Of a stretch of DNA of 64,000 bases, positions 31,447 through 38,996 are shown piece after piece (position 1 is the stretch's first letter; each line of letters begins with the position of its first letter). Location of the stretch: NCBI RefSeq assembly GCF_004342485.1, contig NZ_SMBU01000011.1, forward strand, positions 1-64,000. The letters are read 5' to 3'. A program made the position numbers and the translations under genes. The notes beneath the pieces are model-generated. The model was not told the DNA's origin. It ran no database searches and saw nothing but the letters and a program-made list of their open reading frames with translations. This stretch comes from Roseateles saccharophilus. Its GTDB lineage: Bacteria; Pseudomonadota; Gammaproteobacteria; Burkholderiales; Burkholderiaceae_C.

Positions 31447-34185
31447 ATGCGCCTGCTGCCCCGCCACGCCGCCCTACTTGCGGCCCTGCTCGCCCTGCCC
31501 CTGCTGGCCACGGCCGCGCCCACGGCGGCTCCGCCCGTGCGCGAGGTCGAGGGCATCGGCGAGTACCGCCTGCCCAACGGCCTGCAGCTGCTGCTGATTC
31601 CCGACGCGACCAAGCCCACCGTCACCGTCAATGTGACCTACCGCGTCGGCAGCCGCCACGAGGGCAATGGCGAGACCGGCATGGCCCACCTGCTTGAACA
31701 CCTGATGTTCAAGACGACGAAGCGCTTCGCCAACGTCGGCGCCGAGCTGTCCAAGCGCGGCATGCAGTTCAACGGCACGACCAATGCCGACCGCACCAAC
31801 TACTTCGAGACCTTCCCGGCCGACCCGGCCCAGCTGAGCTGGGCGCTGGCGATGGAGGCCGACCGCATGACCGGCGCCAAGGTGCTGCGCAGCGACCTCG
31901 ACACCGAGATGACCGTCGTGCGCAACGAGATGGAGGCCGGCGAGAACAATGCCTTGGGCATCCTCGTGCAGCGCACCCAGGCCGCCGCCTACCAGTGGCA
32001 CGCCTATGGCCGCAGCACCATCGGCGCGCGCTCCGACGTCGAGCATGTCGCCATCCCCAATCTGCAGGCCTTCTACAAGCGCCACTACCAGCCCGACAAC
32101 GCGACGCTGGTCGTCGCCGGGGCCTTCGATGCGCCGCGCACGCTGGCCGAGATCACGCGCCTGTTCGGCGCCCTGCCCCGGCCCGCGCGCACGCTGCCGG
32201 CCACCTACACGGTCGAACCCGTGCAGGAGGGCGAGCGCCTCGTCACGCTGCGCCGCCCCAGCGGCATGCAGGGCGTGCTGGCGAGCTATCACGTGCCGCC
32301 GCTGGCCAGCCCCGACTTCGCCGCCTTCGAGGTCGCCGTCACGGCCCTGGCCGACACGCCCAGCGGCCGCCTGCACAAGCGCGCCGTCGAGCCCGGCCTG
32401 GCGGCCCAGGCCTTCGGCTGGCCGGGCCGCAACGCCGAGCCGGGCCTGCTCAACCTCGGCCTGGTGCTGAAGACCGACAACGACGTCGACCGCGCCCAGC
32501 AGCTGCTCGTCGACACCGTCGAGAGCCTCGCCAGGGAGCCCATCACGGCCGAGGAACTGGCGCGCGCCCAGGCCCAGTGGGCCAAGAACTTCGACGAGCT
32601 GCTGGCCAACCCGCAGGCCCTGTGCGTGGCCCTGTCCGAGGCCATCGCGGCGGGCGACTGGCGGCTGCTCTTCCAGCTGCGCAACCGCATCGAGGCCGCC
32701 AACGTGGACGGCGTCAACGCGGCGCTGCGCCAGTGGCTGCTGCCCAGCAACCGCACGCTGGGCCGCCTGTACGCGACGGCGGCGCCCGAGCGCAGCCCGC
32801 TGGCCCTGCCGATCGCCGCGGCCGATGCGCTGAAGGACTTCAAGCCCAAGGCCGCTCTGGCCGCCGGCGAAGCCTTCGACACCAGCCCCGCCAATTTCGA
32901 CCGCCGCACCGAGCGCTACCAGCTGGCCAACGGCCTGCGCGTGGCCCTGGTGCCCAAGCGCTCGCGCGGCGAGACGGTGGAGCTGGCGCTGAACCTGCAG
33001 TACGGCACGCTGGACGGCCTGCGCGGCAGGCGCACCGAGGCCAGCCTCGTCGGCGAGGCCCTGGCCCTGGGCAGCCGGCAACACACGCGGGCCCAGATCG
33101 CCGACGGCTTCGACAAGCTGAAGACCCGCTTCGGCGCCAACAGCAGCCCCACGAGCGGCGCCAATGTCACGCTGAGCAGTCACCGCCCGCAACTGGCCGA
33201 GGCCCTCGCGCTGATGGCCGAGGTGCTGCGCGAGCCGAGCTTCCCGGCCACCGAGGTCGAGCAGCTGCTGCGCCAGCAGGTCGCCCAGCTCGAGGAAGCC
33301 GCCCAGCAGCCCCAGGCCGTGGCCTCGCATGCGCTGGAACAGGCGCTCGCCGCGGCCTACCCTGCCGACGACCCGCGCCACCGCGGCAGCTTCGCCGAGG
33401 GCATCGCCGCGCTGAAGGCCACGACGCCCGAGCGCCTGCAGGCCTTCCACCGCGAGTTCTGGGGCGCCGCCCACGGCGAGCTGGTGCTGGTGGGCGACTT
33501 CGACGCCGCCGCGGTCAAGCCACTGATCGAGCGCCTCTTCGGCGGCTGGAGCGCGCCCCAGGCCTACGCCCGCCTGCCCCAGCCGCTGCCGGCCGTGCAG
33601 GGCCTGAAGCTCGGCGAGACGCTGAAGGACAAGGCCAACGCGATGGTCTTTGGCGCGCTGCTGCTGCCGGTGAGCGACGACCACCCCGACTACGCGGCCC
33701 TGCGCATCGCCGCCCATGTGCTCGGCGCCAGCGGCTTCGACTCGCGGCTGCTGACCCGGCTGCGCCAGAAGGAAGGCCTCTCCTACGGCGCCGGCGCCTG
33801 GCTGAACGCGTCCAGCTTCGAGCCCAGCGCCCAGCTGGCCATGGCCGCCATCTTCGCGCCCGAGAACCGCGCCCGCGTCGAGGCGGCCTTCAACGACGAG
33901 CTGGCCCGCTTCGTGCGCGACGGCATCACCCAGGCCGAGCTGGACACCGCCAAGCGCGCGATGAAGGCGCAGAGCGACACCTGGCGCAGCGACGACGGCG
34001 CCGTGGCCGGGGCCATCGCCGGCCACCTTGAGCGCGGCCGCCAGTTCAAGTGGAATGCCGAGCTCGACGCGCGCGGCGAGGCGCTGACGCTCGAGCAGGT
34101 GAACGCCTCCATCAAGCGCTGGGTCGACCCGGCCAAGGCCAATTGGTCCTGGGCCGGCGATTTCGACAAGAAGGCCGCGAAGTGA
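31447..34185 (+). CDS. M16-family zinc metallopeptidase (pitrilysin-like), secreted
   Basis: 912 residues. A signal peptide (MRLLPRHAALLAALLALPLL, cut near ATAAP) is followed by two M16 repeats. The inverted zinc motif HLLEH is in the first (residues about 81-85) with the distal Glu expected near NEMEAGENNALG, while the second half (about 490-900) lacks HXXEH and is the usual inactive partner domain. Such proteins form a clamshell that degrades peptides in the periplasm. The start at 31447 is chosen by signal-peptide position. A 56-bp gap separates it from the ketosynthase gene; no terminator is evident. Confidence 0.92.
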   Translation: MRLLPRHAALLAALLALPLLATAAPTAAPPVREVEGIGEYRLPNGLQLLLIPDATKPTVTVNVTYRVGSRHEGNGETGMAHLLEHLMFKTTKRFANVGAELSKRGMQFNGTTNADRTNYFETFPADPAQLSWALAMEADRMTGAKVLRSDLDTEMTVVRNEMEAGENNALGILVQRTQAAAYQWHAYGRSTIGARSDVEHVAIPNLQAFYKRHYQPDNATLVVAGAFDAPRTLAEITRLFGALPRPARTLPATYTVEPVQEGERLVTLRRPSGMQGVLASYHVPPLASPDFAAFEVAVTALADTPSGRLHKRAVEPGLAAQAFGWPGRNAEPGLLNLGLVLKTDNDVDRAQQLLVDTVESLAREPITAEELARAQAQWAKNFDELLANPQALCVALSEAIAAGDWRLLFQLRNRIEAANVDGVNAALRQWLLPSNRTLGRLYATAAPERSPLALPIAAADALKDFKPKAALAAGEAFDTSPANFDRRTERYQLANGLRVALVPKRSRGETVELALNLQYGTLDGLRGRRTEASLVGEALALGSRQHTRAQIADGFDKLKTRFGANSSPTSGANVTLSSHRPQLAEALALMAEVLREPSFPATEVEQLLRQQVAQLEEAAQQPQAVASHALEQALAAAYPADDPRHRGSFAEGIAALKATTPERLQAFHREFWGAAHGELVLVGDFDAAAVKPLIERLFGGWSAPQAYARLPQPLPAVQGLKLGETLKDKANAMVFGALLLPVSDDHPDYAALRIAAHVLGASGFDSRLLTRLRQKEGLSYGAGAWLNASSFEPSAQLAMAAIFAPENRARVEAAFNDELARFVRDGITQAELDTAKRAMKAQSDTWRSDDGAVAGAIAGHLERGRQFKWNAELDARGEALTLEQVNASIKRWVDPAKANWSWAGDFDKKAAK

Positions 34186-34200
34186 GCCCCGGCCGCGGCC

Positions 34201-34572
34201 TCAGGCGCCGCGGCCGAACTCCTTCAGCCACTGCCTGAGCTGCTTGCGCCCGTCGCTATTGGTGCCCCGGTAGGTCTTCAGCGCCAGCGCGAGGAACTGC
34301 TGCTCGGCGGGCGTCAGGCCCGTGGGCTCGCGCTCCTCGTCGATCCAGCCGGCGGGCTTGTCGCAGTGGTGCTCGACCTGGCGCGCCAGCTTGTCGCCGA
34401 TGGGTCGCGCGCCGCTCTTGGCCATGGACCAGGTCGCGCCGCTGACGCCGATGCGCGCCGCCCACGCGGCCTCCAGGCCCTTGGGCGGGTCGCCCGCATT
34501 GATGCGCTCCTCGGCGAAGGACTGGAACAACGCCAGGGCGTTGAGGCGGCGGATGGTGGCGGGGCTGGGCAT
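34201..34572 (-). CDS. Small HTH transcriptional regulator (Cro/CI-like), probably autoregulated
   Basis: 123 residues from the ATG at 34572; a GTG at 34608 would extend it but lies within an operator. A helix-turn-helix resembling phage Cro/CI proteins is around LEAAWAARIGVSGATWSMAK with GDKLARQVEHHCDKPAGWID after it, and a basic C-terminus follows. Two matched palindromes TGTGAA-N5-TTCACA lie upstream, one over its own start region and one inside a rightward promoter. It is therefore likely a repressor controlling itself and the RNA/HNH/slipin genes to the right. No ligand domain is visible. Confidence 0.72.
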   Translation of the reverse strand: MPSPATIRRLNALALFQSFAEERINAGDPPKGLEAAWAARIGVSGATWSMAKSGARPIGDKLARQVEHHCDKPAGWIDEEREPTGLTPAEQQFLALALKTYRGTNSDGRKQLRQWLKEFGRGA

Positions 34573-34597
34573 GTTGCTGCTGGAAACGACGGAGTGT

Positions 34598-34614
34598 TGT
34601 GAAAACACTTCACA
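34598..34614. promoter_or_regulatory. Operator O1 of the HTH regulator
   Basis: TGTGAAAACACTTCACA: perfect arms TGTGAA/TTCACA around five bases, just upstream of the regulator start and next to its leftward -10 (TAGAAT, 34618-34623). Binding here would repress the regulator's own transcription. Confidence 0.72.
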
Positions 34615-34638
34615 CTCATTCTAGGTGATCGCTGGCAC

Positions 34639-34667
34639 TTGACCGAGGCGTGAACATTTTTCACAAT
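34639..34667 (+). promoter_or_regulatory. Rightward sigma-70 promoter driving the structured RNA
   Basis: TTGACC (34639-34644), a 17-bp spacer and CACAAT (34662-34667), giving a start near 34674. It is the best promoter in this region, and the second palindromic operator lies within its spacer and -10 element, so occupancy would block it. Confidence 0.65.
34649..34665. promoter_or_regulatory. Operator O2 of the HTH regulator
   Basis: CGTGAACATTTTTCACA: arms CGTGAA and TTCACA around five bases, one mismatch from O1, centres 51 bp apart. It overlaps the rightward promoter, so the regulator probably represses both directions in a phage-like switch. Confidence 0.7.
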
Positions 34668-34673
34668 GCAAGG

Positions 34674-34973
34674 ATTCGCTCAAGACAACTGAGCGCTTGC
34701 TATCAACCCCAACCAAGACCGATCCGCTTTCGCACCCCGCCATGAACCGCCACCTCGTCACCGTCATCGCCCCCATCGGCTCGCAGAGCCGGTGCGATGC
34801 CGTGCCGATGGCAAAACCGGCGGGCCTGCTTGCAACGGTCGCCTATGCCCACGACTTCGGTCGTGAGAGTGATGACACCAATACATCGGGTGAAGGACCC
34901 GGCTAGACGCCGCCGCCTTCCACGCTCATTCGAGGCCCGGTCTCCTGCCAAGGAACCGGGCCTCTTCTTTTTC
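34674..34973 (+). ncRNA. Candidate small structured RNA (about 300 nt) ending at a terminator
   Basis: No convincing gene is seen between the rightward promoter and the terminator; one 54-codon frame (34742-34906) starts MNRHLVTVIAPIG but has no clear ribosome-binding site. Instead the DNA encodes stable hairpins: CACGAC-TTCG-GTCGTG (34850-34865), CGGGT-GAAGG-ACCCG near 34887-34901 and the terminator stem. I read it as a regulatory RNA or a leader whose terminator controls entry into the tRNA-like/HNH/slipin genes. Coding by the small frame is not excluded. Confidence 0.5.
34932..34973 (+). terminator. Strong Rho-independent terminator (possible attenuator)
   Basis: Stem GAGGCCCGGT / ACCGGGCCTC (10 bp), extended inside by TCCT-GCCA-AGGA after one bulge, then TTCTTTTTC. 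It ends the short rightward RNA, and lies 376 bp before the tRNA-Pro-like element, so partial read-through could feed the genes beyond. Confidence 0.88.
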
Positions 34974-35349
34974 CGCCGCCGGGGCTGCCTCGGCGCCGCT
35001 GCGCCCGCGCAGCGCCTGCTCTTTCACAACCTACATCGAGCGCCGGCCGACCACATCGGCACGGCGCTCAAAACTGGCAGGCGCCGAGGCTCGTCCCCGG
35101 CCGCCCTGCCCCATCTCGGGTGTGCCCACGCACAAGCACCGGCCGGCCCGGTGTGCATGTGCGCTCGGGCGGCCGCCTGTCGCGTGCAGCGATGCAGCCC
35201 TGGCTTGCGCAGGCCAGCCGCGTCGCGTGTGGACACAGCCGAGATCGATCAACCCGAAGCCCTTCGTCGAGCTCACGCTTCGAAGGGCGCAAACCGGCCG
35301 CAACGATTGGGCGGCGTCGGAACCCGTCACCGACAACCTTTGATTTCGC
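34974..35349 (+). other. Noncoding stretch with a 13-bp hairpin
   Basis: No gene is supported in these 376 bp. The most striking feature is a near-perfect hairpin at 35038-35069: GAGCGCCG-GCCGA, loop CCACA, TCGGC-A-CGGCGCTC, thirteen pairs with one bulged A. A second inverted repeat pairs GCCCTTCG and CGAAGGGC near 35265-35288. Neither is followed by a T run, so they look like parts of a folded RNA, or binding sites, rather than terminators. Confidence 0.55.
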
Positions 35350-35426
35350 CCGGGCGTAGCTCAGCCAGGTAGAGCATCTGCTTTGGGAGCAGAGGGCCGC
35401 ACGTTCAACTCGTGCCACCCGGACCA
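35350..35426 (+). tRNA. tRNA-Pro (anticodon UGG), unusual copy
   Basis: A complete cloverleaf of 77 nt with encoded CCA: acceptor CCGGGCG/CACCCGG (one C-A mismatch), D-arm GCTC-AGCCAGGTA-GAGC, anticodon arm TCTGC-TTTGGGA-GCAGA giving UGG, variable GGGCC, T-arm GCACG-TTCAACT-CGTGC, then A73 and CCA. C1-G72, A73 and GG in the anticodon match known bacterial ProRS identity features, so it may still be charged. It lies 44 bp before an HNH gene with a strong ribosome-binding site, so it is probably cut from a shared transcript. The divergence suggests a specialised tRNA. Confidence 0.75.
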
Positions 35427-35470
35427 ACCATTTCATCCACCGTGCCCAAGCCCGAAGAAAGGAGGTCAGC

Positions 35471-36031
35471 ATGCACGACGTTCTGCAGTTGGACATCACT
35501 GGCCTCCCGCAGTCCTGGATCTCGGTCGAGCAGGCCGCCACGCTCGTCGCCACCGGCGCCGTCGTCTGGTCGGCCGGCAATCGCCCGCTCGCGGTGCTGC
35601 GTGGCGGCTTCAACAGCGCCACCGGCCGCCAGTCGATGCTGGAAGTCCCAGCCATCGTGGCGCTGCGCGGGTCGTCGCGGCTCAATCTCTTCGACATCAC
35701 GCCAGCCTATGGCAAGGCCAAGCTCGTCAAGCGCGACCGCTGCACCTGCGCCTACTGCGGCGAGCGTTTCGACGCCCGCCTGCTGACGGTGGACCACATC
35801 GTGCCCGCCAGCCGCGGCGGGCGCTTGAGCTGGATGAACACGGTCGCGGCCTGCCGTGCCTGCAATTCGGGCAAGGCCGACCGCACGCCGGACGAGGCCC
35901 GCATGCCGCTGCTGTTCGCGCCTTTCGTGCCGAGCCGCTTCGAGGACTTCATCCTCAAGGGCCGGCACATCCGCGCCGACGTGCACGACTGGCTGGCCGC
36001 GCGCCTGCCCAAAGGATCGCGCCTCAGCTGA
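35471..36031 (+). CDS. HNH endonuclease-like protein
   Basis: 186 residues starting after AAAGGAGG. The N-terminal part (VLQLDITGLPQSWISVEQAA) is a helical/beta region found in related proteobacterial proteins. The HNH/zinc finger module (about 90-145) has CAYCGERFDARLLTVDHIVP, SRGGRLSWMNTVAACRACN and Cys pairs that bind structural zinc; the histidines in VDHIV and the Asn at MNTV are the catalytic set. The protein could cut DNA or RNA. Its position between tRNA-like elements is notable, and the stop codon lies in an 18-bp palindrome. Family members are common and not tied to phage here. Confidence 0.88.
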   Translation: MHDVLQLDITGLPQSWISVEQAATLVATGAVVWSAGNRPLAVLRGGFNSATGRQSMLEVPAIVALRGSSRLNLFDITPAYGKAKLVKRDRCTCAYCGERFDARLLTVDHIVPASRGGRLSWMNTVAACRACNSGKADRTPDEARMPLLFAPFVPSRFEDFILKGRHIRADVHDWLAARLPKGSRLS

Positions 36032-36036
36032 GGCGC
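36019..36036. other. 18-bp perfect palindrome over the HNH stop
   Basis: GCGCCTCAGCTGAGGCGC reads the same on both strands and includes the TGA of the HNH gene. It could be a protein-binding site or a self-folding mRNA end; there is no following T run. Confidence 0.6.
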
Positions 36037-36162
36037 CAACGAGTCTGCCGAGGAAAGCAGAGGCTCACAGGCCGGGGTTCCCACGCCCCGCCGGTGCGCT
36101 GCAGCCGGGCTTCATCGCCCGTCGCCGCGGCGCATGCCGCCCTGCAGGAATCGGTCGATACG

Positions 36163-36217
36163 GGTGAGGACATGGTGCCCCCTCGCAGGTTGGGTTCGAG
36201 TCCCAGCCTCACCACCA
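36163..36217 (+). ncRNA. Mini tRNA-like element (acceptor plus T-arm, ends in CCA)
   Basis: A 55-nt element that pairs GGTGAGG (36163-36169) with CCTCACC (36207-36213) in a perfect 7-bp acceptor, then a T-arm TTGGG-TTCGAGT-CCCAG with the canonical T-loop, and A-CCA at 36214-36217. Only 20 nt (36170-36189) replace the D-arm and anticodon arm. It is the shape of a minihelix or a Y-RNA-like tRNA mimic, which tRNA-processing and CCA-end enzymes can recognise. It is 131 bp after the HNH gene. Confidence 0.6.
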
Positions 36218-36291
36218 CTGGATAGCTCAGTCGGGTAGAGCAACGAAATCTGATTTCGTGTGTCGTGGGTTCGACTCCCACTCCAAAACCA
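36218..36291 (+). tRNA. tRNA-Gln(CUG)-like element with worn acceptor stem
   Basis: Directly abutting the mini element, this has a D-arm GCTC-AGTCGGGTA-GAGC, an anticodon arm ACGAA-ATCTGAT-TTCGT with CUG anticodon and U33, variable GTGTC, a T-arm GTGGG-TTCGACT-CCCAC and CCA at 36289-36291. The acceptor stem has only TGGA/TCCA paired and is a base short, so aminoacylation is doubtful. It is best called a tRNA-like sequence or tRNA pseudogene. Confidence 0.6.
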
Positions 36292-36530
36292 AACCGGTCG
36301 CAAGACCACCCCGCCGAACGTGCGCGCCGGCTCCGGCCGGACCGCGCATCAGCGACTCGCGCCCGAACGTCGGGCAAGCGGGGCTCTGCTTCCACGGCCA
36401 GCCGCGAATGCCTTCAGGGAGGGACGTTCAACGCGCACCGAGGCGCCAGGCCCTGGCATCCGGCGTCCGCACGGGTTGCTGTAACGGCACCTTTTCCAAC
36501 ACCCGAAACACGCAACCCAAGGAGGATCCC
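36292..36530 (+). other. Noncoding leader before the slipin gene
   Basis: No gene is supported in these 239 bp. I see several small GC-rich hairpins, such as GCGCCGGC/GCCGGCGC-like arms near 36330, and a strong AAGGAGG at 36519-36525 for the slipin start. A sigma-54 promoter, common at RNA-repair loci, was looked for and not found. Confidence 0.5.
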
Positions 36531-37667
36531 ATGACGATCAAGCGTGTCACCGTGAAGAAGAACGAGCGCGGCCTGCTGCTGCGCAATGGCGATTTCGAGC
36601 GCGTGCTGCAACCCGGCACGCACTGGCTGTTCGCCGGCCTGGACGAGTTGAAGGTCGAGATCTGCAACATCGGCGCACCGGCCTTCGCGCACCCGCTGAC
36701 CGACTACCTGATGGCCAAGGAGCCCGAGGTCGTCGAGGCGGAGTTCCTGCGCGTCGAGCTCACCGAGTACCAGACCGGCCTGCGAACCGAGAACGGCGTG
36801 CTGGTGGAGGTGCTGCCGCCCGCCACGCGGCGCCTGTACTGGCGCGGCCTGGTGGACGTGCAGGTCCAGGTGATCGACCTGCGCGCCGCCGCCGAACTGC
36901 CCGCGGCCATGGCCGCGCGCCTGGCCCAGCCGCAGCTGCGCCCGCGCGCGGTGGCGGGCCTGGCCGGCGTGCTGCAGGTGGAGGTGCCCGAGCACGGCAC
37001 CGGCCTGCTGCGCGTGGACGGCAAGGTCGAGCGGCTGCTGGAGCCGGGCGCACACGCGTTCTGGAAGTTCGGCCGCAACGTGGCCGTCGACTTGGTGGAC
37101 CTGCGGCTGCAGGCGCTCGAAGTCACGGGCCAGGAGATCCTGACCCGCGACAAGGTCGCGCTGCGGCTCAACCTCTCCGCCACCTGGCGCTACACCGACG
37201 TGCTGCGCGCGTTCGAGCAACTGGCCAAGCCGGCCGACCACCTCTACCGCGAGCTGCAGTTCGGCCTGCGCGCAGCGGTCGGCACGCGCACGCTGGACGA
37301 GTTGCTGGAGAACAAATCGGTCATCGACGAGGTCGTGACCGTCCAGGTCACCACCAAGCTGCAAGGCCTCGGCCTGCAGCTCGACGGCGTGGGCGTGAAG
37401 GACATCGTGCTGCCGGGCGAGATGAAGACCATCCTGGCCCAGGTGGTGGAGGCCGGCAAGGCGGCCGAGGCAAACGTGATCCGCCGCCGCGAGGAAACCG
37501 CGGCGACGCGCGCCCTGCTCAACACGGCCAAGGTGATGGAGGACAACCCCGTCGCGCTGCGCCTGAAGGAGCTGGAGACGCTGGAACGCGTGGCCGAGCG
37601 CATCGACAAGATCTCCGTGTTCGGAGGTCTGGACCAGGTGATCAACGGGCTGGTGAAGCTGCGGTGA
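36531..37667 (+). CDS. Slipin/SPFH (band 7) family protein with repeated N-terminal beta modules
   Basis: 378 residues. No membrane anchor precedes it, so it should be cytosolic, unlike stomatin. Three related beta modules, each opening with V-x-V-x3-x-GL and an ExVLxPG-like turn, lie at about 6-46, 75-118 and 150-192, as in KKNERGLLLRNGDFERVLQP and VPEHGTGLLRVDGKVERLLE. The SPFH core runs to about 320 (TGQEILTRDKVALRLNLSAT; LQLDGVGVKDIVLPGEMKTI) and a helical tail follows. Slipins of this type often accompany bacterial RNA-repair operons. Strong AAGGAGG precedes the ATG. A terminator follows. Confidence 0.9.
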   Translation: MTIKRVTVKKNERGLLLRNGDFERVLQPGTHWLFAGLDELKVEICNIGAPAFAHPLTDYLMAKEPEVVEAEFLRVELTEYQTGLRTENGVLVEVLPPATRRLYWRGLVDVQVQVIDLRAAAELPAAMAARLAQPQLRPRAVAGLAGVLQVEVPEHGTGLLRVDGKVERLLEPGAHAFWKFGRNVAVDLVDLRLQALEVTGQEILTRDKVALRLNLSATWRYTDVLRAFEQLAKPADHLYRELQFGLRAAVGTRTLDELLENKSVIDEVVTVQVTTKLQGLGLQLDGVGVKDIVLPGEMKTILAQVVEAGKAAEANVIRRREETAATRALLNTAKVMEDNPVALRLKELETLERVAERIDKISVFGGLDQVINGLVKLR

Positions 37668-37710
37668 GCACGACCCTGCCGGCGAATCCAGCGATGCCGG
37701 CCACCCCTGA

Positions 37711-37745
37711 GGGGCGCTCGACGCGAGTCGGGCGCCCCTTTTTCC
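37711..37745 (+). terminator. Terminator after the slipin gene
   Basis: GGGGCGC pairs with GCGCCCC, continued by CGAC/GTCG across a T-G pair and closed by a GCGA (GNRA) loop, then TTTTTCC. A twelve-pair stem with U tract ends the rightward transcript. Confidence 0.9.
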
Positions 37746-37768
37746 ATTCCGGCGCTAGGCTCGCACCC

Positions 37769-38068
37769 ATGCGCTATCTGGATTTCGAACTCAGCGAAGG
37801 TGACGACGGCATCACGACGCTGGACGCGATGGCCTCCACGCCCGCGGCCCGGCATGCCGACGTGCTGGCCGAGGCCGCGGCCGTGCTGGCCTGGTGCCGG
37901 CGCGAGTTCCCGCACACCGAGGGCCCCGTGGAAGAGGGCCAGGACTGGGATCACGAATTGCTCGTCAGCCAGGAAGACGGCGGCTGGCACACCGTCACGC
38001 TGACGCTGACCGGCTCGGCGCGCTTCGTGGACGCCTTCCTGGCCGCCTTCGGCGAACCCCTGGGCTGA
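37769..38068 (+). CDS. Small conserved hypothetical protein (99 aa)
   Basis: 99 residues. It begins MRYLDFELSEGDDGITTLDA, then a helix around HADVLAEAAAVLAWCRREFP, an acidic turn (PVEEGQDWDHELLVSQEDGG) and a strand pair WHTVTLTLTGSARFVDAFL. I know similar small proteins in Burkholderiales without an assigned function. It is in the gap after the slipin terminator, 58 bp before the membrane sensor gene. The ATG at 37769 was preferred over an upstream frame that would overlap the terminator. Confidence 0.7.
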   Translation: MRYLDFELSEGDDGITTLDAMASTPAARHADVLAEAAAVLAWCRREFPHTEGPVEEGQDWDHELLVSQEDGGWHTVTLTLTGSARFVDAFLAAFGEPLG

Positions 38069-38126
38069 CCCGCGCTGCCGCCTTCATCGCCGGGCACTAC
38101 CATTGGCGGTTCGTCTGGGGCCGCCT

Positions 38127-38996
38127 ATGAAACTGCTCGCCAAGTTCAATCTCGTCTACATCCTCGTGATGGCACTGGGCATCGGCCTCAGCGGCTACAT
38201 TGCCCGCCAGCTGCTGCAGGAGAACGCCGAGCAGGAGGTCGTCGGCAGCGCGCGCATGCTGATGGAGAAGGCGCTGGCGGTGCGCAACTACACCAACACG
38301 CAGATCAAGCCGCTGCTGGCCACGCAGATGGCCACCGAGTTCCTGCCCCAGACGGTGCCGAGCTATTCCGCCACCGAGGTGCTGGGCACGCTGCTGGCCA
38401 AGCATCCCGAGTTCGCCTACAAGGAGGCGACGCTCAACCCCACCAACCCGCGCGACCGCGCCACCAGCTGGGAGGTCGACATCGTCGGCCAGTTCCGCAG
38501 CAATGCCGAGCTGAAGGAGGCCGTCGGCACGCGCGACACGCCGGCCGGCCCTTCGCTCTACATCGCGCGCCCGCTGCGCATCACCGACCCCGCCTGCCTG
38601 GCCTGCCACAGCAGCGTGGACGCCGCGCCTGCCACCATGGTCGCCAAGTACGGCCCGGCCAACGGCTTCGGCTGGAACCTCAACGAGGTCATAGGCGCGC
38701 AGATCGTCTCGGTGCCGCTGGGCGTGCCGCTGCAGCGCGCCGACCAGACCTTCAAGGTCTTCATCACCTCGCTGGTCGGCGTCTTCGTCGCGGTCGGCAT
38801 CGTGCTCAACCTGATGGTGTGGATGCTGGTCGTGCGCCCGGTCACACGGCTGTCGGCCCTGGCCGACCGCGTCAGCCAGGGCGACCTGGACGCACCCGAG
38901 TTCAAGACCAGCGGCCGCGACGAGATCGCGACGCTGTCCGACTCTTTTTCCCGCATGCGTGCCAGCGTCGTGCAGGCCATGAAACTCCTGGAATGA
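38127..38996 (+). CDS. Membrane-bound haem-containing sensor: Tll0287-like domain plus HAMP
   Basis: 289 residues. The N-terminal helix (about 6-26) and second helix (about 215-240) enclose a periplasmic Tll0287-like/DUF3365 domain (30-205). It contains PACLACHSSVDAAP, a CXXCH c-type haem-binding motif. A HAMP domain follows (240-285, RPVTRLSALADRVSQGDLD), and the protein stops there with no kinase or methyl-accepting part. HAMP output must therefore reach another protein; the Ser/Thr kinase gene 100 bp downstream is the natural candidate. The haem could sense redox or gases; all of this role is inferred. Confidence 0.85.
   Translation: MKLLAKFNLVYILVMALGIGLSGYIARQLLQENAEQEVVGSARMLMEKALAVRNYTNTQIKPLLATQMATEFLPQTVPSYSATEVLGTLLAKHPEFAYKEATLNPTNPRDRATSWEVDIVGQFRSNAELKEAVGTRDTPAGPSLYIARPLRITDPACLACHSSVDAAPATMVAKYGPANGFGWNLNEVIGAQIVSVPLGVPLQRADQTFKVFITSLVGVFVAVGIVLNLMVWMLVVRPVTRLSALADRVSQGDLDAPEFKTSGRDEIATLSDSFSRMRASVVQAMKLLE

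Follow-up and report, generated by a model that had tools for sequence, protein, structure and literature searches.

What brings a repressor-like regulator, a proline tRNA gene, an HNH endonuclease gene, two tRNA-like elements and a slipin gene together in one block? The question is posed by a locus within a 64,000-nucleotide stretch of DNA (hereafter the window) from Roseateles saccharophilus (contig NZ_SMBU01000011.1, positions 1 to 64,000; assembly GCF_004342485.1, 5.77 Mb in 108 contigs). An earlier note, made from the sequence alone, had read it as a stress or defence unit whose tRNA-like RNAs serve as substrates, decoys or sensors. Comparison with related genomes indicates, with high confidence, that the locus is a reduced 'tRNA array unit' that has merged with part of an RNA-repair operon.

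Gene order and known relatives of the locus

A first set of 12 slipin loci besides that of the window (43-91% identity) was found among 60 relatives, and the order of regulator, tRNA region, HNH and slipin is kept in 10 of these 13 loci. The gene and RNA order that the earlier note had proposed to check is conserved, and the absence of conservation that it had named as speaking against its reading is therefore not what was found. In the fuller relatives, as many as 29 tRNAs form an array that faces an XRE-like repressor and is followed by the HNH gene, two tandem tRNA-likes, the slipin gene and often rtcB. The features of the window's copy are collected in the table; most of the parts listed in the earlier note are among them, whilst a boxA-like site, two structured RNAs (RNA-A and RNA-B) and the lack of rtcB at the place where the closest relatives carry it had been overlooked.

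Table. Features of the locus, with positions in the window and the basis of each call
Feature	Position	Strand	Basis
XRE/phage-repressor-like regulator	34201..34572	-	PHROG match, structure model, orthologues
Operator 1, GTGAA-N5-TTCAC	34599..34613		adjoins regulator gene
Promoter TTGACC-17-CACAAT enclosing operator 2	34639..34667	+	sequence scan
Leader open reading frame, 54 codons, tail ..SGEGPG	34742..34906	+	recurrence among relatives
Terminator/attenuator hairpin GGCCCGG..CCGGGCC with T tail	34932..34972	+	folding, recurrence
boxA-like site TGCTCTTTCACA	35017..35028	+	match to boxA consensus
Structured RNA 'RNA-A'	35109..35249	+	covariation
Structured RNA 'RNA-B'	35256..35338 (about)	+	near-invariant 51-nt core
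tRNA-Pro(UGG), lone remaining array tRNA	35350..35426	+	Rfam tRNA, 60.4 bits
HNH endonuclease, array-linked clade	35471..36031	+	PF14279, 57 bits
Mini tRNA-like RNA: acceptor stem, short hairpin, T arm, encoded CCA	36163..36217	+	covariation
tRNA-like RNA, conserved D and T arms, free anticodon arm	36219..36289	+	covariation
Slipin (SPFH)	36531..37667	+	PF01145, 102 bits
Place of rtcB in L031 and L032 (between slipin and Tll0287-like gene)	37668..38126		RtcB absent in window
Terminator-like hairpin after slipin	37709..37740	+	hairpin scan

Each half of this arrangement, the tRNA array unit and the RNA-repair operon, is already known. Mycobacterial tRNA array units of group G2 carry an XRE regulator and an HNH gene (PMC5966550; PMC12803027), and the locus resembles such units in its HNH gene, its XRE-type regulator, the dense tRNA cluster of its relatives and its occurrence on chromosome or plasmid. 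It differs from them in possessing a leader-attenuator, RNA-A, RNA-B, tandem tRNA-likes, a slipin and, in many relatives, rtcB. The window itself combines the HNH gene and XRE-type regulator of an array unit with a single tRNA and the tRNA-likes in place of a dense cluster of many tRNA genes. The second half recalls the RtcR-controlled rtcBA operons (PMC7790460): in relatives, the orthologous slipins and tandem tRNA-likes adjoin RtcR, RtcB and often RtcA, and the link to RNA-repair loci drawn in the earlier note thereby holds. Unlike those operons, the window has neither an adjacent rtcR with a sigma-54-like site nor RtcB or Ro60.

The strongest outside support for a scheme of repressor, attenuator and repair comes from Anabaena PCC 7120, in which one repressor, TrcR, silences a 26-tRNA operon, rtcB, slipin and HNH genes, and repression is relieved by translation-blocking antibiotics (PMC10272220). 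The genes are scattered in Anabaena whereas they form one locus here, the likeness is one of gene content, and the excerpts of that description mention neither tRNA-likes nor an attenuator. In open-licence PubMed Central, which misses most subscription papers, no paper was found that unites both halves in one locus; PMC10272220 alone connects a tRNA array with RtcB there, and nothing was found on a tRNA array with a leader peptide or on a slipin with a tRNA-like. Arrays have so far been catalogued without a settled function. Their merger or exchange with RtcR repair operons, alongside a leader that encodes nearly all amino acids, would suggest a concrete role in emergency tRNA replacement and repair, and the tandem tRNA-likes, RNA-A and RNA-B would be new objects and candidates for binding by slipin or RtcB.

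The reduced state of the window's copy invites the reading that it is a decaying remnant, with its array nearly gone, its rtcB lost and the remainder on the way out. Indeed its single array tRNA has an acceptor mismatch, rtcB is absent, and the number of array tRNAs falls from 12 to none across the ten closest loci (the ten order-conserving loci hold 0 to 12 array tRNAs, with 0 in L039). Decay is nevertheless considered unlikely: the ratio of non-synonymous to synonymous substitution rates (Ka/Ks) against relatives, a pairwise measure that is blind to very recent decay, is 0.09-0.36 for the three proteins together (regulator 0.09-0.17, against three relatives; HNH 0.23-0.36; slipin 0.18-0.26), and reduced loci, too, have kept RNA-A, RNA-B and the tRNA-likes intact. 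With these low ratios and intact RNAs, the locus is apparently a reduced copy that is still under selection.

Repressor-like regulator, leader and proposed attenuator

The helix-turn-helix regulator gene and the two matched operators reported earlier both stand. A Pfam search with the regulator gave no match; it matches a PHROG transcriptional-repressor family (E 6.8e-5), and its predicted fold is of the phage-repressor type (model built from 6 sequences, mean predicted local distance difference test score 81; best Foldseek match the phage repressor 5d50_A, probability 1.00, E 2.5e-3). Orthologues are found at the equivalent place in 44 array loci. The second copy of the GTGAA-N5-TTCAC motif (operator 2, 34650-34664) sits between the -35 (TTGACC) and -10 (CACAAT) elements of the sole promoter-like match within 34150-38200, where 0.1 such matches are expected. 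The half-sites are common to most Roseateles-clade loci, and in other loci the sites read GTGAA...TTCAC or GTAAA...TTTAC.

Downstream of the promoter lies what the earlier note had called a terminated structured RNA. The terminator and the strong folding are there (z -4.9 for the stretch of leader and terminator); the RNA gene is not, and its place is taken by a conserved leader open reading frame (ORF) followed by a terminator hairpin. An interpretation of 34741-34972 as non-coding RNA only was ruled out, since the leader ORF recurs with a shared tail in relatives. Leader and terminator occur together in 41 of the 44 loci having the regulator (the other three are without a terminator match), with leaders of 43-103 codons that stop 27-50 nt before a GGCCCGG..CCGGGCC-type terminator. 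The leaders contain on average 18.7 kinds of amino acid, against 16.7 expected from equally long segments of the window's proteins, and 38 of 41 lie above expectation (the exceptions being L073, L075 and L112; the L031 leader was counted from the shared start). The window's peptide contains 19 of the 20, and leaders over-use Cys, His, Ser and Asn. At the RNA level, CCGGG in the leader tail can pair with CCCGG in the 5' arm of the terminator; cognate duplexes average -13.5 kcal/mol against -12.5 for swapped ones (0 of 5000 permutations as low), and of the 36 loci in which both motifs are exact, 25 have complementary flanking bases as well (17 T/A, 8 A/T). In L103, CCTGG was seen by eye opposite CCAGG, yet this duplex is no stronger than shuffled ones (p 0.36). 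Since nearly every amino acid is represented in the leaders, and the leader tail is able to pair with the terminator 5' arm, the attenuator could act as a general sensor of tRNA shortage, a putative role for which the signal in the window itself is weak; the sensing part of the locus may be the leader attenuator instead of the tRNA-likes. A boxA-like site follows; candidates with at most two substitutions occur in 25 of 41 loci and are exact in L076, L078 and L079.

These parts can be assembled into a scheme in which the XRE-like repressor would keep the promoter shut via the operator inside it. Once the promoter is opened, RNA polymerase would run into the attenuator. A ribosome that completes the leader would cover the leader tail with its footprint, so that the terminator forms, whilst a ribosome that stalls where a charged tRNA is in short supply would leave the tail to pair with the terminator 5' arm, resulting in read-through that is perhaps aided by boxA. 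The transcript would then yield spare tRNAs, the HNH protein, two structured RNAs, the tandem tRNA-likes and slipin (with the RtcB ligase in relatives). Spare tRNAs would replace cleaved ones, RtcB would mend cleaved ones, and slipin would help repair with the tRNA-elbow mimics; of this scheme the window would retain just tRNA-Pro and the tRNA-like/slipin part. It is likely that the locus responds to tRNA damage or shortage. Leaving aside the role of slipin and tRNA-likes, an inducible tRNA-damage locus with repressor, attenuator and spare tRNAs is a reasonably probable description, and transcription attenuation by ribosome stalling has slightly less than an even chance of being the mechanism. 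The sequence supports the repressor and the attenuator, whilst the signal that they would sense is something we infer.

Several observations weigh against the scheme. The window has no RtcB and one array tRNA, near the small end of the range, and slipin-free arrays exist (32 of 98 loci). With regard to the leader, the script that found it favoured ORFs with PGEG-like ends, and the composition and duplex tests ignore the relatedness of the loci. Leaders under-use Leu, Ile, Val, Glu, Trp and Asp, Trp being absent from that of the window. When tails were shuffled, p was at most 0.05 in just 7 of 41 duplexes, and the window's own duplex is ordinary (p 0.30). Finally, leader Ka/Ks is 0.43-1.03 in 16 pairs, indicating little constraint on the peptide; this would allow a leader role and is by itself no proof of translation.

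Tandem tRNA-likes, slipin and RtcB

The joint structure of the two tandem elements covaries: in 20 loci, two-sided changes occur in 71 cells, as against 22 in shuffled alignments (0 of 500 as high) and 10-19 in slid controls, which bears out the mini tRNA-like element described before. When the window's tRNA-likes were folded as single sequences, no signal emerged (z 0.0). With a loose pattern, 62 of 64 loci were seen to have a tRNA-like with D and T arms at a distance of 230-550 nt upstream of slipin, the two loci without a match being L149 and L168. A covariance model (R1) scores at least 59.6 bits at the tRNA-like position in 59 of the 64 (L168 included; the other five lower), 20 of these 59 being its own training set. 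Array tRNAs score up to 77.5 bits with R1, and weak R1 matches therefore do not discriminate. In the source genome, the model reaches 128 bits at the window's locus and at most 64 elsewhere, at what are presumably ordinary tRNAs.

The second element had been called tRNA-Gln-like; it does pass the tRNA models (46.1 bits), but its acceptor stem has 4 bp in the window, its anticodon varies freely among relatives, and the CCA found after it in the window is shared by just some of the relatives. A decoding tRNA-Gln(CUG) was ruled out by that acceptor stem and the unconserved anticodon arm. Across 62 loci there are 56 different anticodon arms, with a stem of at least 4 pairs in 60; the loops include CTGATAA, as in tRNA-Ile(GAU), and at least 9 of the 62 have GCAA or GAAA tetraloops. 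Such diversity is what might be expected if the tRNA-likes were decoys with fast-changing anticodon loops for tRNA-cutting nucleases of phage, rival bacteria or the cell, and arrays have been considered a putative antidefence system (PMC12803027). The tetraloops, however, take the place of an anticodon loop, and PADLOC has no family for slipin or regulator; the anticodon decoy was rejected as the main reading because of the tetraloops, and we regard it as quite improbable. In some outgroup loci the first element also has a D arm, and the mini form is thus probably derived. On the comparative evidence, the two elements are best described as a predicted conserved pair of tRNA-elbow mimics and not as two decayed tRNAs.

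Y RNAs are linked to RNA repair. In YrlA Y RNA-like sequences (RF02553), a T arm precedes a D arm at similar spacing, as in the tandem tRNA-likes, whereas here there are two separate tRNA-like folds and the score is 21.2 bits against a gathering score of 69. The mascRNA-menRNA family (RF01684) is likewise a mini tRNA with short arms, but is unrelated by context, and the score is 23.4 bits against 42.5. Membership in either family was rejected with these scores below gathering, and the Ro60 partner expected of a Y RNA was not found in the source genome.

The slipin call was confirmed, and its residues 187-373 are matched by stomatin chains. No membrane segment was predicted in it (highest 19-residue hydropathy 0.99), and given this low hydropathy the protein is probably soluble or peripheral. 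As for the terminator of its own that the earlier note had assigned to it, a hairpin is present, but the scan that gave it found 3 sites where 2.3 are expected by chance. Slipin orthologues are found in two settings. The Citrobacter orthologue (54%) adjoins an annotated rtcR, and among 70 slipin loci RtcR lies divergently upstream in 31, an array, HNH or tRNAs occur without RtcR in 35, and neither is found in 4, an upper bound since flanks differ in length. Amongst the 31, L100 also has an array and HNH, and two others have a tRNA further off. A set of 80 named loci, which partly overlaps the 70 and includes six with short upstream flanks, comprises 42 with RtcR only, 29 with an array only, 3 with both and 6 with neither. 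A sigma-54-like site (at most one substitution from the consensus) is present ahead of the tRNA-likes at 30 of the 31 RtcR loci and at none of the 22 array loci, and the 70-row slipin tree requires 7 changes of the array label, 5 or more of them forced by well-supported branches. Because of these two contexts, their sites and the label changes, the tandem tRNA-likes and slipin, usually with RtcB, would seem to form one module that has repeatedly come under two tRNA-related controls.

Slipin is followed by RtcB in 24 of the 28 loci of RtcR type and in 24 of the remaining 38 (one just a 57-residue piece). Where slipin is lacking, RtcB comes after HNH in 11 of 28 arrays and in all 4 loci that have RtcR nearby. 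The linked rtcB that the earlier note had suggested looking for is thereby found in relatives; the linked ro60 was not found in the source genome. In the window, slipin is followed by a Tll0287-like gene without rtcB, as in L033, whilst the close relatives L031 and L032 carry it. A search of the source genome gave no RtcB, RtcR or Ro60, and the 18 kb around the locus contain neither RtcA nor RtcB, in keeping with the missing repair enzymes of the earlier note. RtcA and a nucleotidyltransferase are often near slipin/RtcB, the nucleotidyltransferase gene being frequent in RtcR-slipin-rtcB operons (L175, L180, L183 and others).

What the tRNA-likes do for slipin is a matter of weighing two accounts. 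They could be a mere processing or stability element, where cleavage of the long transcript by RNase P and tRNA 3'-end enzymes would define the 5' end of the slipin mRNA. This would explain why the elbow and acceptor stems are kept while the anticodon arm drifts, and it suits both their place 230-550 nt before slipin in 62 loci and a slipin gene directly after them under either control. Two elements in tandem, however, seem more than processing requires, the mini form lost its D arm yet kept its other parts, and ordinary upstream array tRNAs could serve equally; overall, a processing element is considered rather unlikely. The other account, that slipin and the tRNA-elbow mimics assist tRNA repair, is also doubtful when taken singly. 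As a broader and tentative proposal, a pan-tRNA sensor, in which the leader peptide with its nearly complete set of amino acids drives attenuation, would open a spare-tRNA and repair operon when almost any charged tRNA is short; the anticodon-free tRNA-likes would be a new RNA partner of slipin, kept across switches of control between RtcR and the array.

HNH endonuclease, structured RNAs and array tRNAs

The HNH gene was found as previously reported, but is no odd insert between tRNA-like parts as the earlier note had supposed: HNH is a usual member of tRNA array units. A different account would make it a homing-type nuclease that spreads or reshuffles the array, with regulator, tRNAs and slipin as passengers. 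Among the protein genes of mycobacterial arrays, HNH is the most widely distributed, and its involvement in tRNA diversity has been suggested (PMC5966550); arrays occur on plasmids too. Against this, HNH keeps its place and order across many genera, with attenuator, RNA-A and tRNA-likes conserved next to it, and slipin and tRNA-likes also occur without HNH in at least 28 of 70 loci, which makes a homing origin of the arrangement highly improbable. HNH alone was rejected as a marker of the locus, since 346 of 399 family genomes match at E 1e-30; among the matches listed, most family genomes have a second HNH that is about 50-56% identical to the array HNH. PADLOC was likewise set aside for HNH, as it gave just HNH-domain matches (PtuB, PDC-M01B, Cas9). 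Just upstream of HNH in L032, L034 and L037 lies a small ORF with a SEC-C-like motif (GRNDPCPCG), the frame of which apparently shifts at a shared place in all three.

RNA-A, with a long closing stem and inner helices, was found in 45 loci. Over the 35 that were aligned, two-sided changes were counted in 99 cells, compared with 32 after shuffling (0 of 500 as high); a locus was kept only where 6 of the 9 outer bases paired, a choice that favours the outer stem. The RNA-A model detects 14 of the 60 relatives and gave three further regulator-array-HNH loci. These arrays are all slipin-free: L302 and L303 have rtcB and rtcA directly upstream of the regulator, and in L304 RtcR faces HNH. Allowing 12 substitutions, the 51-nt core of RNA-B is present at 38 of 59 loci; 8 of the 9 Roseateles-clade loci, the window among them, share it unchanged. 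With identical cores counted once, 25 distinct cores remain from the 38 loci, across which the hairpins stay paired with the exception of one outer pair; the single-sequence fold in the window gives z -1.6. Neither RNA reaches any Rfam family in the searches made, and RNA-A of a second locus comes nowhere near a gathering score. After the tRNA-likes, AACCGGTCGCAAGACCACCCCGCCGAACGTG (window 36292-36323) hardly varies among the ten closest loci and recalls the beginning of RNA-B.

The near-canonical tRNA-Pro(UGG) of the earlier note proved to be just that: it has a cloverleaf, an encoded CCA and one C-A mismatch in the acceptor, and its anticodon arm equals that of the chromosomal copy whilst the other arms differ. 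By sequence criteria, it would be a tRNA of the decoding type, and we take it to be the remainder of an array of real tRNAs. Loci retrieved with HNH carry up to 29 array tRNAs (L102), covering nearly all amino acids. Amongst 72,556 plasmid records, slipin relatives occur in 8 and HNH relatives in 9, and two of the HNH records have arrays, of 27 and 23 tRNAs. Some array tRNAs of L034 (7095-8922) and L040 (6217-8792, both oriented) have insertions of ~60-180 nt in the T loop or anticodon region, and are either broken genes or intron-like. Two plasmid arrays contain other repair-like genes: L173 (Methylibium petroleiphilum plasmid RPME01) has those for AlkB and an HD-domain protein, and L174 (Variovorax sp. 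RA8 plasmid) has one for an 'RNA ligase family protein'.

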